Assembly (NCBI GenBank): GCA_001515955.1
Contig: LOES01000116.1
Span: 1 to 31,297 of the forward strand
Reading direction: 5' to 3'
Length of the DNA stretch: 31,297 nucleotides
Source: Clostridia bacterium BRH_c25
Lineage (GTDB): Bacteria > Bacillota_A > Clostridia > Lutisporales > Lutisporaceae
Shown: positions 50 to 8,094 of the stretch, piece by piece
Layout of the letters: every line of letters starts with the position of its first letter
Numbering within the stretch: position 1 is the stretch's first letter
Position numbers and translations under genes: made by a program
The notes under the pieces: generated by a model
What the model was told of the DNA's origin: nothing
Seen by the model: the letters and a program-made list of their open reading frames with translations, nothing else
The model's database searches: none

Positions 50-1597
50 TTAGTACTTTTCCGTAACTGACTTCAGTTGCATGAATAAAGTCAAATAATC
101 AGGCCCACCTGCTTTTGAATCAGTGCCGGACATATTGAACCCGCCAAAAGGATTGACTCCTACCAATGCTCCCGTGCACTTTCTGTTTAAGTAAAGGTTT
201 CCTACATAAAACTCACGCTTCGCTTTTTCCAGTACACATCTGTCATTTGAATATACAGCACCTGTCAATCCGTATACCGTATCATTTGCGATATCCAACG
301 CATCACTAAAGTCCACAGCTTTGATGATTGCAAGCACCGGACCGAAAATCTCCTCCTGTGCTATCCTTGAATTCCTGTCAACATCAGAAAATATGGCAGG
401 GTAAATAAAATAACCGCCTTCCTTACCCCGTTCCCCACCTATAATCAATCTCCCCTCATCCTTGCCTGTTTCAATGTATGCCGTTATTTTTTCATATGCT
501 TTTTCGTCTATTACAGGCCCGATATTTACATCAGCTTCAACTGGATCCTCTATTTTAAGAGTTTTTGTCCTTTCAACTATCTTCTCAAGCATTTTGTCGT
601 ATACATCTTCAACAATTATTGCCCTGGAACAGGCTGAACATTTTTGTCCCTGGAAACCGAAGGCTGAAGTAACAATACCGTCGGCAGCAGCATCCAGATC
701 AGCATTCTTATCAACTAATATTGCGTCCTTACCTCCCATTTCAGCCGTTACACGCTTTATCCATTTTTGCCCCGTGCTTATTTCTGCTGCTAATCTGTTG
801 ATTCTCAAACCTATATCTTTTGAGCCTGTAAAATTTATAAACCTGACCTTAGAATGGGTGACCAGATAATCACCAACCTTTGATCCTGAACAAGGCAAAT
901 AATTCACCACTCCTGATGGAAGGCCAATCTCTTCCCATATCTCCATGAGCTTGGCTGCAATCACAGGTGTCGTGCTTGCCGGCTTCATTATTATTGTATT
1001 TCCTGTAACGATAGCAGCTGCAGACATCCCTGTCAGAATAGCAAGGGGAAAATTCCAGGGAGCTATAATCAATCCCACTCCCAAAGGTATATAATAGCAT
1101 TCGTTGTTTTCACCCTGCACCTGTGATATAGGCACACCGGAGGAAAGATCAAGAATTCTTCTTCCGTAGTACTCAAGAAAATCTATTGCTTCAGCCGTAT
1201 CAGCGTCTGCTTCAATCCATGTCTTCCCCGCCTCCTTAATCAACCATGCTGAAAACTCATATTTTCTCCTGCGCATAATTGCTGCTGCTTTGAAAAGATA
1301 ATTCGCCCTTATTGCAGGAACCTCATACTTCCATGTCCTAAATGCAATATCTGCTGCTTTTACAGCTTTATCGGCCAATTCAATGGAAGCACCTGATACA
1401 ATACCTATAACCTGATCATACTCAGATGGATTCAATGATTTTATACTATTTTCAGTGGTGTATCTTTCACCGCCTATTACCAGCGGATATTCCAGCCCTA
1501 TCTGCTCATTCACCGCATCCAGAGCAGATTTCATAGCCGCAATATTATTTTTCCTTGTAAAGTCTGTCAGTGGCTCATTAATATAATTTGTTAACAT
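50..1597 (-). CDS. rocA: 1-pyrroline-5-carboxylate dehydrogenase (RocA family)
   Basis: NAD+-dependent oxidation of glutamate semialdehyde (open form of pyrroline-5-carboxylate) to glutamate, the last step of proline and arginine/ornithine breakdown, in the cytoplasm. The 515-residue protein has the full aldehyde dehydrogenase set: PWNF (180-183, including Asn182), Lys205 in MKPAS, the FTGS glycine motif (256-259), general base Glu286 in AEMGGK and nucleophile Cys320 in GQKCSACSR. It is collinear with Bacillus RocA from the N-terminal NEPLTDF to the C-terminal FGGFNMSGTDSKAGGPDYL, which marks the P5C dehydrogenase group rather than a generic aldehyde dehydrogenase. The ATG at 1597 follows a strong GGAGGAG site. 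No proline dehydrogenase is fused or adjacent. The unusual feature is a 300-nt structured leader resembling a Moco riboswitch. Confidence 0.93.
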   Translation of the reverse strand: MLTNYINEPLTDFTRKNNIAAMKSALDAVNEQIGLEYPLVIGGERYTTENSIKSLNPSEYDQVIGIVSGASIELADKAVKAADIAFRTWKYEVPAIRANYLFKAAAIMRRRKYEFSAWLIKEAGKTWIEADADTAEAIDFLEYYGRRILDLSSGVPISQVQGENNECYYIPLGVGLIIAPWNFPLAILTGMSAAAIVTGNTIIMKPASTTPVIAAKLMEIWEEIGLPSGVVNYLPCSGSKVGDYLVTHSKVRFINFTGSKDIGLRINRLAAEISTGQKWIKRVTAEMGGKDAILVDKNADLDAAADGIVTSAFGFQGQKCSACSRAIIVEDVYDKMLEKIVERTKTLKIEDPVEADVNIGPVIDEKAYEKITAYIETGKDEGRLIIGGERGKEGGYFIYPAIFSDVDRNSRIAQEEIFGPVLAIIKAVDFSDALDIANDTVYGLTGAVYSNDRCVLEKAKREFYVGNLYLNRKCTGALVGVNPFGGFNMSGTDSKAGGPDYLTLFMQLKSVTEKY

Positions 1598-1662
1598 TTT
1601 GCTCCTCCTATTTTTTTCCGCTGTATTTATCCTTTTTCAGCAGTATTTTGACTATCTATAGC

Positions 1663-1767
1663 AAAACAGCTCCTACAAAATTGGCAGGAGCTGTACTATT
1701 TTGCACAACATAAATTAAACCGCTTTCAAATGAAGGCGGTTGCAGCACAAAAACAACCTAACAGGTT
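1663..1767 (-). terminator. Expression platform with tandem intrinsic terminators in the rocA leader
   Basis: Downstream of the aptamer on the minus strand are three hairpins. CAACCU-guu-AGGUUG followed by UUUUUG (1767-1749) sits only about 10 nt after P1 and looks like the switch terminator. AACCGC...GCGGUU (1741-1718) follows. ACAGCUCCU...AGGAGCUGU followed by UUUU (1694-1663) is a second terminator-like hairpin, ending 66 nt before the rocA start codon. The layout implies control by premature termination, but the alternative antiterminator pairing was not established. Confidence 0.6.
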
Positions 1768-1776
1768 GCATACGCT

Positions 1777-1868
1777 GCTCCTTTCCAACGGGAGGCATTA
1801 CCGTTTCCAGCAATACCCTAACGGTCTATATCCCGTAGCCCAATGCTTTAGGTATATAAACTCGGAGC
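1777..1868 (-). promoter_or_regulatory. Moco (molybdenum/tungsten cofactor) riboswitch-like aptamer
   Basis: Read on the minus strand, the leader of rocA has the MOCO_RNA_motif architecture. P1 is GCUCC (1868-1864) with GGAGC (1781-1777). A second helix is formed by CCUA/UAGG enclosing ACGG-n8-CCGU. Immediately after it comes a 10-bp stem capped by a GAAA tetraloop (GGUAUUGCUG-GAAA-CGGUAAUGCC). The most conserved stretch, GCCUCCCGU followed by UGGAAAGG, is at 1796-1780. As I recall the E. coli moaA leader, it shares the CCUCCCGU...UGGAAAGG block, the ACGG-n8-CCGU hairpin and the abutting P2/P3. Known Moco RNAs control cofactor synthesis, Mo/W transport and Mo/W enzymes. A covariance search (Rfam RF01055) would decide the call. 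Confidence 0.8.
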
Positions 1869-1902
1869 TATTCAATTTTTTTTGCAGTCTACTCTTACAT
1901 TT

Positions 1903-1931
1903 ATTTTAGCATCTTTATCAGCAAGTATCAA
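1903..1931 (-). promoter_or_regulatory. SigA-type promoter of the rocA leader
   Basis: On the minus strand, TTGATA (1931-1926), a 17-nt spacer and TAAAAT (1908-1903). The predicted start near 1896 would give a leader of about 300 nt that contains the whole aptamer and both terminators. Confidence 0.65.
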
Positions 1932-5501: not shown

Positions 5502-7511
5502 TTACTCTTCTGTTGGTTCGATAAGCTCTCTGATACTCAAGCTCATTTTCTTTTCTTCCGGTTTTATATCAATTATCTTTGCTTTAACAGTATCTCCTAT
5601 ATTCAACGCATCTGCCGGCTTGGAAATCCTTTTGTCAGATATCTGTGAAATATGAACAAGTCCGTCGATGCCAGGTTCAAGCTCTACAAAGGCTCCAAAG
5701 TTCGAGAACCTTAATACCTTTACATCTACTATGTCCCCTACCTTATACTTATCTCCTGCAGCTGCCCAAGGCTCAGGCAATGTCTGTTTCAGCCCAAGAG
5801 AAATCTTCTTCTTATCCTTATCAACTGCCAGCACCACTACTTCAACCTTATTACCGGGCTTAACAACCTCTGAAGGATGTTTTACCCTTGACCAGGACAG
5901 TTCAGATATGTGTATGAGACCATCTACTCCGCCGATATCGACAAAAGCGCCAAAATCGGTAAGTCTCTTAACCTCACCGGTTAACCTCTGTCCTGCTTCA
6001 ATACTTTCCCATACTGCTTTTTCTTTGATTTCCTGCTCTTTCTTCAAAAGCACTTTTCTGGATACAACAACTTTTCTCTTTTCAGGATCATATTCTATCA
6101 CACTTACCATTACTCTTGTATTAACATAACCGCTAAGGTCCTCAGAGTATCTTATATCAAACTGGGATGCCGGCATAAATGCCCTGATGCCCATCAATTC
6201 AACTATCGCTCCGCCTCTGACTATCTCTTTGACGTAACCTTCTATAGGGGTCTTTTCATTGAACGCTGCCTCTATCTTATGCCAATTCTTTTCTGCATCA
6301 AAAAGCTTCTTCGAGAGTACTACATTGCCTTCGCCGTCATTGATGCTTACAACGACCACTTCCAGTTCGTCCCCTGCTTTTATAAGCTCTTTGAGATTAG
6401 CTTCAGGCTCCCATGTATAGTCTTCCTTCTTTATTATACCGTCGGATTTATATCCAATATTGACCATGACCTCATCATCCGTAACCATGATTACGGTTCC
6501 CTTTACTGTATCACCTGCGTAGACTGTTCTCATGGTCTTCTCATATTCTTCCATCATATTTTCCTGATTTTCAGTAATACCTTCCTGGTTCTCAACAATG
6601 TTTTCCTGATCCTCAATAATACCTTCCTGGTTCTCAACAATGTTTTCCTGATTCTCAGTCATGTTGTCATTAATCTCTTGCATCTTTCCGATAACCTCCT
6701 TAATTACCCAATCAGGTGTGGATGCACCCGCTGTAATGCCAATTCTCCCTAATCCCTTCAGCACATCTATGGGCAAATCCTCTGCTTTCTCAATATGAAA
6801 AGCTTTATTGCAATTTTCCTTGCATATTTGGTAAAGCTTGTTCGTATTGGAACTCTCCCTGCTTCCGATTACAATCATGCAATCAACATTCTTCGAAAGC
6901 TGTTCCGCCGATTCCTGCCTCTTCTCGGTTGCGCTGCAAATAGTATTAAATATAATTGCATTTTTGTATTTTTTTTGTATAGCATCCACTACGCTGTCCC
7001 AAATTTTTTTTGTAATTGTAGTTTGTGCAACTAAACATATTTTATCATATATAGGAAGTTTGTCTACTATTTTTTCGTCTTCCAATATGTGAGCAGTGTA
7101 ACCGCACCATCCGTTGGTTCCTATAACCTCCGGGTGGTTTTTATCCCCAACAATGAATATTTTATATCCTTTTTGATAATAATCCCTTACTTTTTTGTGT
7201 ATCGCCGAAACATACGGACAAGTGCAGTCAATATACTTAAAACCCTTTTCTTCAAACAGTCTGTATTTTTCCTCAGCAATTCCATGGGAACGAATTATAA
7301 GCTCTGCTTCTTTATCCTTGATTTCATCAATATCGTCAATGGAATGTACACCTTGCTCCTCAAGCTTTCTTATGACTTGTTTGTTATGTATAAGAGGCCC
7401 GTAAGTAAAAATCTTTCTCTCGTATATATTATCTACTTCATTAAAAGCTTTATCCACAGCTTTTTTTACTCCAAAACAAAAGCCTGCATTTTCATCAAGA
7501 ATTATTTTCAT
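5502..7511 (-). CDS. ispH: HMBPP reductase (IspH) fused to ribosomal protein S1-like domains
   Basis: Bifunctional 669-residue protein. Residues 1-280 are IspH, the iron-sulfur enzyme that reduces HMBPP to IPP and DMAPP in the last step of the MEP isoprenoid pathway. The cluster cysteines are Cys12 (GFCFGV), Cys98 (CTCPY) and Cys192 (ICSATEKRQ). His42, His76, His126 and Glu128 match the known substrate-site residues. About 285-320 is a linker of five heptads of the type (I/V/T)-E-N-Q-E-(N/G)-(I/M). Residues 333-661 hold four S1 RNA-binding domains. This fusion is common in Clostridia, although the heptad linker seems unusual. ATG 7511 is preceded by AAGAGGG and matches the family N-terminus MKII; it overlaps the end of plsC by 17 bp. 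Upstream in-frame ATGs at 7520 and 7535 are less likely. Confidence 0.94.
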   Translation of the reverse strand: MKIILDENAGFCFGVKKAVDKAFNEVDNIYERKIFTYGPLIHNKQVIRKLEEQGVHSIDDIDEIKDKEAELIIRSHGIAEEKYRLFEEKGFKYIDCTCPYVSAIHKKVRDYYQKGYKIFIVGDKNHPEVIGTNGWCGYTAHILEDEKIVDKLPIYDKICLVAQTTITKKIWDSVVDAIQKKYKNAIIFNTICSATEKRQESAEQLSKNVDCMIVIGSRESSNTNKLYQICKENCNKAFHIEKAEDLPIDVLKGLGRIGITAGASTPDWVIKEVIGKMQEINDNMTENQENIVENQEGIIEDQENIVENQEGITENQENMMEEYEKTMRTVYAGDTVKGTVIMVTDDEVMVNIGYKSDGIIKKEDYTWEPEANLKELIKAGDELEVVVVSINDGEGNVVLSKKLFDAEKNWHKIEAAFNEKTPIEGYVKEIVRGGAIVELMGIRAFMPASQFDIRYSEDLSGYVNTRVMVSVIEYDPEKRKVVVSRKVLLKKEQEIKEKAVWESIEAGQRLTGEVKRLTDFGAFVDIGGVDGLIHISELSWSRVKHPSEVVKPGNKVEVVVLAVDKDKKKISLGLKQTLPEPWAAAGDKYKVGDIVDVKVLRFSNFGAFVELEPGIDGLVHISQISDKRISKPADALNIGDTVKAKIIDIKPEEKKMSLSIRELIEPTEE
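6552..6659 (-). repeat. 21-bp coding minisatellite in the IspH-S1 linker
   Basis: About five in-frame 21-bp units encode heptads such as VENQEGI and TENQENI. Units alternate NI/GI, giving a strong 42-bp super-period (for example VENQEGI-IEDQENI-VENQEGI). Copies are near identical at DNA level, suggesting recent expansion by slippage. The repeat is in frame, so copy-number change would lengthen or shorten the linker without breaking the protein. Confidence 0.85.
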
Positions 7512-8094
7512 CTTCTGCATCCCTCTTAAGTTCATTAACTTTATTCATAATATCAAGACTGATTTTAAGATAATCGTTATTAAACAACTTTTTGTCATAA
7601 TACTCCGTAAGCTCAATGGGCTTTCCAATAATAACCCTTGTCCTTCTAAAAAACTTATAACTGCTTATAATTGCTACCGGTAGAACAGGTACCTTTGATT
7701 TTACAGCAAGCATTGCAATACCAGGTTCAGCTGCCGCTTCGCTGGTTTTCATCCTTGTACCCTCAGGAAAAAGGCCAAGCACCTTTCCACTGCCTAAAAG
7801 CTTAAGAGATGTTTTTATGCTCCTTATGTCGGCTTCCCCTCTCTTTATTGGAAATACGCCCAGCCCATGCATCAGTGCTCCGATCAATTTGTTCCTGAAT
7901 AATTCAACCTTTGCCATGAAGTACATTCTATGCGGAAGTGATATGCCGACAAATATGGGGTCTATCGCACTCATATGGTTCGCACATGCGATATATGCCC
8001 CGCCTTTCGGAACATTTTCCTTTCCTGTTACTCTGTAATTGTAGAACAATAGGAATATTGGTATAAGCAATGCTCTGGCAAAGCTATACAGCAC
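7495..8094 (-). CDS. plsC: 1-acyl-sn-glycerol-3-phosphate acyltransferase (PlsC)
   Basis: Acylates lysophosphatidic acid to phosphatidic acid at the inner face of the membrane. The 199-residue protein has a hydrophobic N-terminus (about 6-20), the catalytic NHMSAID (His40 and Asp45 of HX4D), and the substrate motif FPEGTR (109-114). A basic GVFPIKRGE block lies between them. The start appears to be GTG at 8094, seven nt after GGAGG. The nearby ATG at 8098 is out of frame. It lies between cmk (18-bp gap) and ispH-rpsA (overlap), the usual clostridial order cmk-plsC-ispH-rpsA. Confidence 0.92.
   Translation of the reverse strand: MLYSFARALLIPIFLLFYNYRVTGKENVPKGGAYIACANHMSAIDPIFVGISLPHRMYFMAKVELFRNKLIGALMHGLGVFPIKRGEADIRSIKTSLKLLGSGKVLGLFPEGTRMKTSEAAAEPGIAMLAVKSKVPVLPVAIISSYKFFRRTRVIIGKPIELTEYYDKKLFNNDYLKISLDIMNKVNELKRDAEDENNS

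Follow-up and report, generated by a model that had tools for sequence, protein, structure and literature searches.

The window analyzed here, a 31,297-nucleotide stretch from Clostridia bacterium BRH_c25 (contig LOES01000116.1, positions 1 to 31,297), includes a rocA gene whose leader is almost certainly a functional Moco RNA, the riboswitch family RF01055 named for the molybdenum cofactor (Moco). The product of rocA is a predicted NAD-dependent 1-pyrroline-5-carboxylate (P5C) dehydrogenase (P5CDH), a metal-independent enzyme. Moco RNAs also precede genes of a second P5CDH family, and the association of leader and P5CDH is very likely a real regulatory pairing. Taken jointly, the results are best read as a Moco RNA of the form that lacks stem P3 turning rocA off in the presence of the cofactor, with RocA standing in for tungsten-dependent aldehyde oxidoreductases (AORs) in its absence; we regard this combined reading as evenly balanced between true and false. 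The features of the leader and the gene are as follows.

1903..1931, minus strand: promoter-like sequence TTGATA-17-TAAAAT with an extended -10 (10 of 12 positions matching)
1762..1879, minus strand: Moco RNA aptamer (RF01055), P3-less form, 74.9 bits; the P3 columns are deleted in the alignment
1864..1868, minus strand: P1 5' strand, GCUCC (RF01055 alignment, folding)
1777..1781, minus strand: P1 3' strand, GGAGC (RF01055 alignment, folding)
1742..1778, minus strand: anti-P1 hairpin predicted to compete with P1, consisting of GCAGC (overlapping the P1 3' strand), an inner stem, UUGU and GCUGC (folding)
1718..1741, minus strand: hairpin T1, AACCGC...GCGGUU, with a weak U tract (probability 0.88 free, 0.89 with P1 forced)
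1666..1694, minus strand: predicted terminator T2, ACAGCUCCUGCC...GUAGGAGCUGU followed by a U tract, 11 pairs (folding, shuffles)
1604..1609, minus strand: Shine-Dalgarno (SD) sequence AGGAGG (sequence)
50..1597, minus strand: rocA, coding for a predicted L-glutamate gamma-semialdehyde (P5C) dehydrogenase of 515 amino acids (profiles, solved relative)

The rocA leader and its predicted switching

A search of both strands of the window with RF01055 matched the leader with 74.9 bits (gathering score, 36; E 1.4e-16), and the match spans model positions 1-135, which is the full length. A preliminary description of this DNA had placed a complete Moco aptamer at 1777-1868 of the minus strand; the match confirms it, and those limits run exactly from P1 to P1 (GCUCC at 1868-1864 with GGAGC at 1781-1777). 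The GAAA-capped stem and the core described at that time are also borne out by the alignment, in which the GAAA tetraloop on P4, GCCUCCCGU and UGGAAAGG are all found, the latter with the conserved junction GCCUCCC. Judged by its alignment the window aptamer is a typical RF01055 RNA. Its P2 bulge includes CCUAAAG and CUACGGG, which we take, by sequence resemblance, to be similar to a tetraloop receptor. The P3 stem is missing, which is the feature by which Regulski et al. recognize the subtype associated with the tungsten cofactor (Tuco). According to the portion of that article considered here (PMC2408646), P3 is missing in 58 of 176 Moco RNAs, and genes that point to tungsten-cofactor metabolism are present in 17 of the 19 organisms that have the P3-less form. 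The leader most likely senses the tungsten (or molybdenum) pterin cofactor. A close relative, genome G400, has AFOR_C matches, a MoaA over the cut-off and a Moco RNA preceding genes that read as a tungstate-type ABC transporter.

The RocA product scored 761.4 bits with TIGR01237 (equivalog cut-off, 659.65) and 818.4 bits with NF002852 (cut-off, 648), Aldedh is its sole domain, and its top relative of solved structure is a P5C dehydrogenase (E 1.7e-203). The gene had been named a P5C dehydrogenase before, and as far as profiles can tell RocA is a genuine one. The distance from the aptamer to rocA is 165 nt. The good promoter claimed upstream did not hold up: the TTGATA-17-TAAAAT sequence (1931-1903) occurs once, against an average of 1.2 in shuffled sequences, and the match alone is therefore not significant.

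The preliminary description did not include an expression platform, which we identified as the P1-competing hairpin at 1778-1742 and T2 at 1694-1666. The layout of the anti-P1 hairpin, GCAGC...UUGUGCUGC following P1 and overlapping its 3' strand, is shared by the window and by two other rocA leaders, L001 from Clostridiaceae metagenome-assembled genome (MAG) M1-B18 (genome G001) and L031 from MX18-03 (G394). When the growing transcripts were folded, the free minimum free energy structure dropped P1 in all three once the hairpin was about complete. Counted from the start of the P1 3' strand, this point falls within 37-45 nt for the window and L031 and within 29-37 nt for L001. Two terminator-like sites were found in the leader while 0.2 were expected from shuffles. 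The sequences CAGCUCCU and AGGAGCUG in T2 nearly repeat the P1 strands, the T2 5' arm being similar to the P1 5' strand and the T2 3' arm to the P1 3' strand. Because of this resemblance T2 would compete with an open P1, and when P1 was forbidden the P1 5' strand of the window paired with the T2 3' arm.

To predict the polarity, the probability of the terminator in a transcript ending at that terminator was compared between the free state and a state in which P1 was forced, taken as the ligand-bound state. The T2 probability rose from 0.07 to 0.99 in the window (0.10 and 0.97 under automatic hairpin limits) and from 0.12 to 0.90 in L001 (0.21 and 0.71). When the T2 5' arm was shuffled together with its matching 3' arm, a change of at least 0.75 was reached in 0 of 300 cases for the window and 1 of 300 for L001; shuffles of P1 matched the real change in 0 of 114 and 0 of 87, respectively. 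The rise under P1 forcing and the shuffle controls thus point to a leader that is OFF with ligand in a manner dependent on the exact arms, and we consider it probable that the window rocA leader is OFF when the cofactor is bound.

Several results weigh against this polarity. The terminator of the L031 copy, in which rocA is broken, is flat (0.96 free and 0.99 with P1 forced; 0.95 and 0.98 under automatic limits). In a longer transcript with P1 forbidden, window T2 is flat as well, 0.91 with P1 against 0.88 without it, and the T2 switch is visible only in transcripts that end at T2. T1 is predicted in the free and the P1-forced state alike, and in L001 it precedes six U's, a feature that the model does not explain. 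Folding energies, moreover, are not kinetics.

The mechanism that we propose is one in which binding of plentiful cofactor would hold P1 closed; with P1 held closed T2 would form and transcription would stop. If the cofactor is absent, the hairpin just past P1 would draw the P1 3' strand away, and the freed P1 5' strand would pair with the T2 3' arm, permitting transcription of rocA. RocA, a predicted NAD-dependent cysteine enzyme, would then oxidize glutamate semialdehyde, and perhaps other aldehydes, at a time when the AORs, whose role here is putative, could not be loaded.

Recurrence of Moco RNAs with two P5CDH families

A search for close RocA relatives across 84,980 species, each represented by a single genome, yielded 31 loci, 21 of which (all but L016, L019, L020, L022-L025 and L027-L029) were scanned with Rfam; L009 and L085 have less than 170 nt of upstream sequence. 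A Moco RNA was found upstream of two of the 21. L001 has an aptamer of 63.6 bits and a RocA 69% identical to that of the window; L031 has an aptamer of 70.5 bits that looks intact, followed by a rocA remnant (6582-7258 in G394) consisting of the start and then residues 429-514 in another frame. No Moco RNA was found at 11 further RocA loci (49-66% identical) from the order and class of M1-B18. The pairing in relatives, the subject of a check suggested in the preliminary description, was found in L001 and L031; 30 of the 32 scanned loci have no leader, so that it is missing from most of the distant rocA genes, a count that weighs against the combined reading. The preliminary description had also named, as what would speak against it, rocA orthologs without the leader together with the same leader elsewhere on genes with no link to Moco: the former were found, and the latter were not the rule, with 90 of 144 classed leaders on genes related to molybdenum or tungsten (Mo/W).

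RocA was found in 8 of 393 genomes of the order of M1-B18 and in 5 of 391 of a class sample. Full-length RocA was found in none of the 22 genomes of the window's order (the order of G394, which includes G395-G400) at E 1e-130, so the broken L031 is as far as the pairing can be followed among close relatives. The closest proteins, P0001-P0003, which are 81, 95 and 72% identical, lie outside the scanned loci. The leader travels with rocA and not with its surroundings, as the unit is found in three different contexts. It adjoins cotS in the window; in G400 another gene is found 279 bases after cotS, with neither rocA nor the leader there. In L001 a gene reading as a ROK-type kinase lies upstream of the unit and one reading as glutamine synthetase type III downstream of rocA.

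Among the genes downstream of 78 Moco RNAs in the family of M1-B18 we found a second P5CDH, with 798.9 bits to TIGR01236 (cut-off, 613.6) and 33% identity to window RocA. In a sample of 386 genomes from the order of M1-B18, this type, P5CDH1, is present in 25 (E 1e-150), and at 10 of the 25 loci the gene is immediately preceded by a same-strand RF01055 match, with two such matches at one locus. A genome has roughly four Moco RNAs (78 across 20 genomes) among several thousand genes, and we estimate that far fewer than one such pairing would be expected by chance. On the protein tree the leader label needs 4 changes compared with 8.1 in shuffles (1 of 500 shuffles was as low), and the starred branches of the P5CDH1 tree force at least two label changes. 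The tandem Moco RNAs before a P5CDH gene are those of L253 (3271-3392 and 3510-3630, minus strand); other tandem Moco RNAs are found in L077 (7989-8100 and 8147-8263, minus strand) and L196.

All 14 P5CDH aptamers of both families are 115-122 nt long, and 12 of them match the P3-less junction pattern, L001 and L265 being off by about a base. The distance from the P5CDH1 aptamer end to the ATG is 62-290 nt. The platforms differ between groups: L246-L250 have a long hairpin able to hide the ribosome site and share a conserved CCUUCUUU, which could pair with the SD sequence as well as with the P1 3' strand, at a spacing of 55-223 nt; L259 and L263-L265 have terminator-like hairpins; and L253 fits neither group clearly. 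When the polarity test was run automatically on the 11 P5CDH1 aptamers, L246 and L250 were called OFF, and no ON call by terminator was obtained for any of the 14 P5CDH aptamers. With hand-picked hairpins, a choice that weakens the calls, L263 (0.16 to 0.73 with P1) and L265 (0.27 to 0.96) were also OFF. The SD sequence became less accessible upon formation of P1 in L246 (0.13 to 0.02), L248 (0.37 to 0.03), L249 (0.39 to 0.06) and L250 (0.23 to 0.02), which are small to moderate changes.

These leaders also supply points on the other side. Six of the 11 P5CDH1 aptamers, including L263, were flat in the automatic test and three, including L265, had no terminator; L259 and L264 were flat even with hand-picked hairpins. 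Shuffles of P1 reached the SD change in 12 of 115 cases for L246, 25 of 116 for L248, 15 of 118 for L249 and 9 of 115 for L250, SD accessibility was unchanged in L247 and L253, and the sequestering hairpin of L249 was flat in a longer transcript with P1 forbidden. The predicted polarity of P5CDH leaders other than those of the window and L001 is less clear.

Moco RNAs of AOR, hydrogenase and other genes

In the window's order some RF01055 match was found in 22 of 22 genomes, over the cut-off in 20. The downstream genes were read for 55 of the 57 Moco RNA matches of this order (all but G413:C161 and G408:C486) and for 78 of 78 in the family of M1-B18. Classes were assigned to the leaders from BLAST matches to seed proteins, of which several had been named by our own reading, and only some were checked with profiles. 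The 90 leaders mentioned above go with Mo/W transport, cofactor synthesis or Mo/W enzymes; 30 of the 144 are unclassed.

The AOR class is supported by AFOR domains in L154 and by AFOR_C just behind the L166 aptamer (G400), the other assignments being by BLAST. In all nine AOR-class leaders of the window's order the P1 3' strand itself serves as the 5' arm of the terminator, whose probability falls from 0.93-0.99 to 0.51-0.75 when P1 is forced, an ON layout. P1 was not placed in 2 of the 11 AOR-class leaders, L229 and L240, both from outside that order, and four leaders outside the class were called ON among the 144. Eight AOR leaders (L154, L158, L159, L161 and L163-L166) have a variant core, GCAAAG/CUGCC in place of GGAAAG/CUCCC; among the 134 leaders compared, both changes together were found in none of the 123 non-AOR leaders. 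The variant-core leaders may constitute a sub-class that recognizes another form of the ligand. At L173 in G397 a gene for a Mo-dependent aldehyde oxidoreductase (NF045668 over the cut-off) is preceded by a weak Moco RNA variant (27.1 bits, under the gathering score), called ON-type.

An NADH-dependent [FeFe] hydrogenase of group A6 lies behind eight Moco RNAs of the window's order (L127, L131, L134, L135, L138, L168, L170 and L174); NF040763 confirmed L127 and L134 (922.6 and 927 bits; cut-off, 765), and the other six were assigned by BLAST. Three of the eight leaders are predicted to be OFF and none ON, three are flat, one has no terminator and in one P1 was not placed. Elsewhere the polarity test was mostly flat (23 of 34 tup, 12 of 14 moaA and 14 of 14 moeA leaders), which indicates that it assigns a polarity to only some leaders. 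Forbidding P1 in a longer transcript likewise gave flat results for the majority of the tup, moaA and moeA leaders. The TupA-type proteins of L149 and L153 match NF041772 below the cut-off, as does the WtpA-type protein of L171. Large exported-looking proteins (about 1070-1140 amino acids; L156 is cut short) lie behind the Moco RNAs L137, L145, L147, L150-L152 and L155-L157; the one checked, L147, has an Oxidored_molyb domain.

Possible role of the leader and alternative explanations

Cobalamin riboswitches on metE or nrd genes are cofactor riboswitches that repress a B12-independent isozyme. The rocA leader is like them in that the cofactor would repress an enzyme able to work without it; unlike in their case, the cofactor is Moco or Tuco, and the replaced enzyme, an AOR or a relative, would be of another family and of wide substrate range. 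Glutamate semialdehyde is the 2-amino relative of glutaric semialdehyde. Within the portion considered of a 2025 review (PMC12096430), AORs are described as accepting a wide range of aldehydes, one AOR is said to have taken over phenylacetaldehyde oxidation upon loss of the dedicated enzyme, and glutaric semialdehyde is proposed as a substrate of the tungsten FOR. AFOR_C matches were found in 12 of 12 leader-carrying genomes searched (one a 35-bit fragment), and also in 12 of 15 P5CDH1 genomes with no leader, which counts against explaining the leader by the presence of an AOR; the comparison is not decisive. Two genomes placed close to the leader clade of the P5CDH1 tree, G108 and G099, have no AFOR_C match. 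MoaA is over the cut-off in 26 of 28 genomes, the other two being G155, a genome without the leader that sits inside a leader clade, and G185, which has the leader and a 1.1-Mb assembly. These distributions give hints of substitution. Substitution had been suggested in the preliminary description, and it gains from the second P5CDH family and from the prediction of OFF for P5CDH versus ON for AOR, whereas the polarity is a computed one; as the reason for the pairing we find substitution neither favored nor disfavored.

The main rival to substitution is a broader redox shift, in which the pairing is regulatory but serves to match P5CDH to redox or nitrogen flow and not to replace AOR. With Tuco or Moco, electrons would leave via ferredoxin and formate, and without it NAD-linked oxidation and NADH-dependent hydrogen release would take over. 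This is rather unlikely in our opinion. The hydrogenase leaders, with three OFF and none ON, and the gene reading as glutamine synthetase type III after the L001 rocA agree with it, but the remaining five hydrogenase leaders give no such call, and a redox shift overlaps the substitution model instead of excluding it. Polarity itself could be otherwise, with the leader ON with cofactor or acting on translation through a ribosome site bearing GGAGC and not through T2. In favor of this, P1 is directly followed by a hairpin overlapping the P1 3' strand, as in the ON-type AOR leaders, and the accessibility of the window SD sequence rises slightly with P1 (0.65 to 0.83); that hairpin, however, has no U tract, the rise of T2 with P1 depends on the exact arm sequences, and the absence of ON calls by terminator extends to all 14 P5CDH aptamers, which makes this alternative quite improbable.

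We consider it very unlikely that the leader is a functionless relic of a lost Mo/W gene. The many RocA loci without a leader and the lack of a predicted switch in the broken L031 copy would agree with a relic, but the unit recurs in unrelated contexts, similar leaders head a second P5CDH family, and the aptamer core, the anti-P1 hairpin and the match of T2 to P1 are kept in both intact copies. Inheritance of an older leader by rocA, the other explanation offered in the preliminary description, is for the same recurrence in three contexts and in two families unlikely as the whole story. That the enzyme is misnamed and itself handles a Mo/W-related step is hardly credible: the Mo/W genes behind most classed leaders (BLAST classes) would suggest it, but both P5CDH families pass their equivalog cut-offs and window RocA has the Aldedh domain only.

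Returning to repression of rocA by the cofactor and replacement of AORs, the findings permit a wider proposal, which we make tentatively and with somewhat less than even confidence. These clostridia may have a two-way cofactor RNA regulon, in which ordinary Moco RNAs would shut off metal-independent or iron-only enzymes (both P5CDH families and the [FeFe] hydrogenase) and a sub-class with the swapped core would turn AORs ON, perhaps in response to a different cofactor form. The AOR-operon Moco RNAs of the eight variant-core leaders are like the window leader in RNA class, order and the link to aldehyde oxidation, and differ in the GCAAAG with CUGCC core, in the terminator 5' arm taken from the P1 3' strand and in the predicted ON polarity. 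Compared with the Moco RNAs in the portion considered of Regulski et al. (2008, PMC2408646), the window leader has the full aptamer, the P3-less form and a platform of the terminator or hidden-ribosome-site kinds known there; unlike those RNAs, which belong to cofactor synthesis, Mo/W transport or a Mo/W enzyme, its target is a predicted NAD-dependent P5CDH, a metal-independent enzyme that it would induce when the cofactor is short. Among the matches listed from open-licence PMC full text no Moco RNA was tied to P5CDH or to an NAD-dependent aldehyde dehydrogenase; Table 1 and the supplementary alignments of Regulski et al. are outside that scope and may list a P5CDH or hydrogenase example. The word "hydrogenase" has 0 occurrences in the covered text of PMC2408646, and a narrower search of open-licence full text likewise gave no Moco RNA tied to a hydrogenase. 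As far as these searches show, the target and the logic are new within the open-licence full text, supplementary lists being outside it.

If this is true, the role of Moco/Tuco riboswitches would extend from upkeep of the cofactor to the choice between metal-dependent and metal-independent enzymes, and tungsten supply would be linked to proline and ornithine breakdown, and perhaps to hydrogen release, in anaerobes. It would also give a testable handle on the in-cell substrates of AORs in amino-acid fermenters, where genes induced without the cofactor would point to glutamate semialdehyde. The opposite switches in related bacteria, P5CDH OFF and AOR ON, would be material for tests of ligand specificity.

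The window also includes an IspH-RpsA fusion (5502-7535; NF000907 over the cut-off), a useful lineage marker that is 88% identical to that of G400, 78-79% to those of G395-G399 and about 45-53% to those in the family of M1-B18. G412, a member of the window's order, is in the class sample of M1-B18, which places the window in the same class. The G394 record is named Calditrichales bacterium MX18-03, yet it is placed in the order of the window's nearest relatives.

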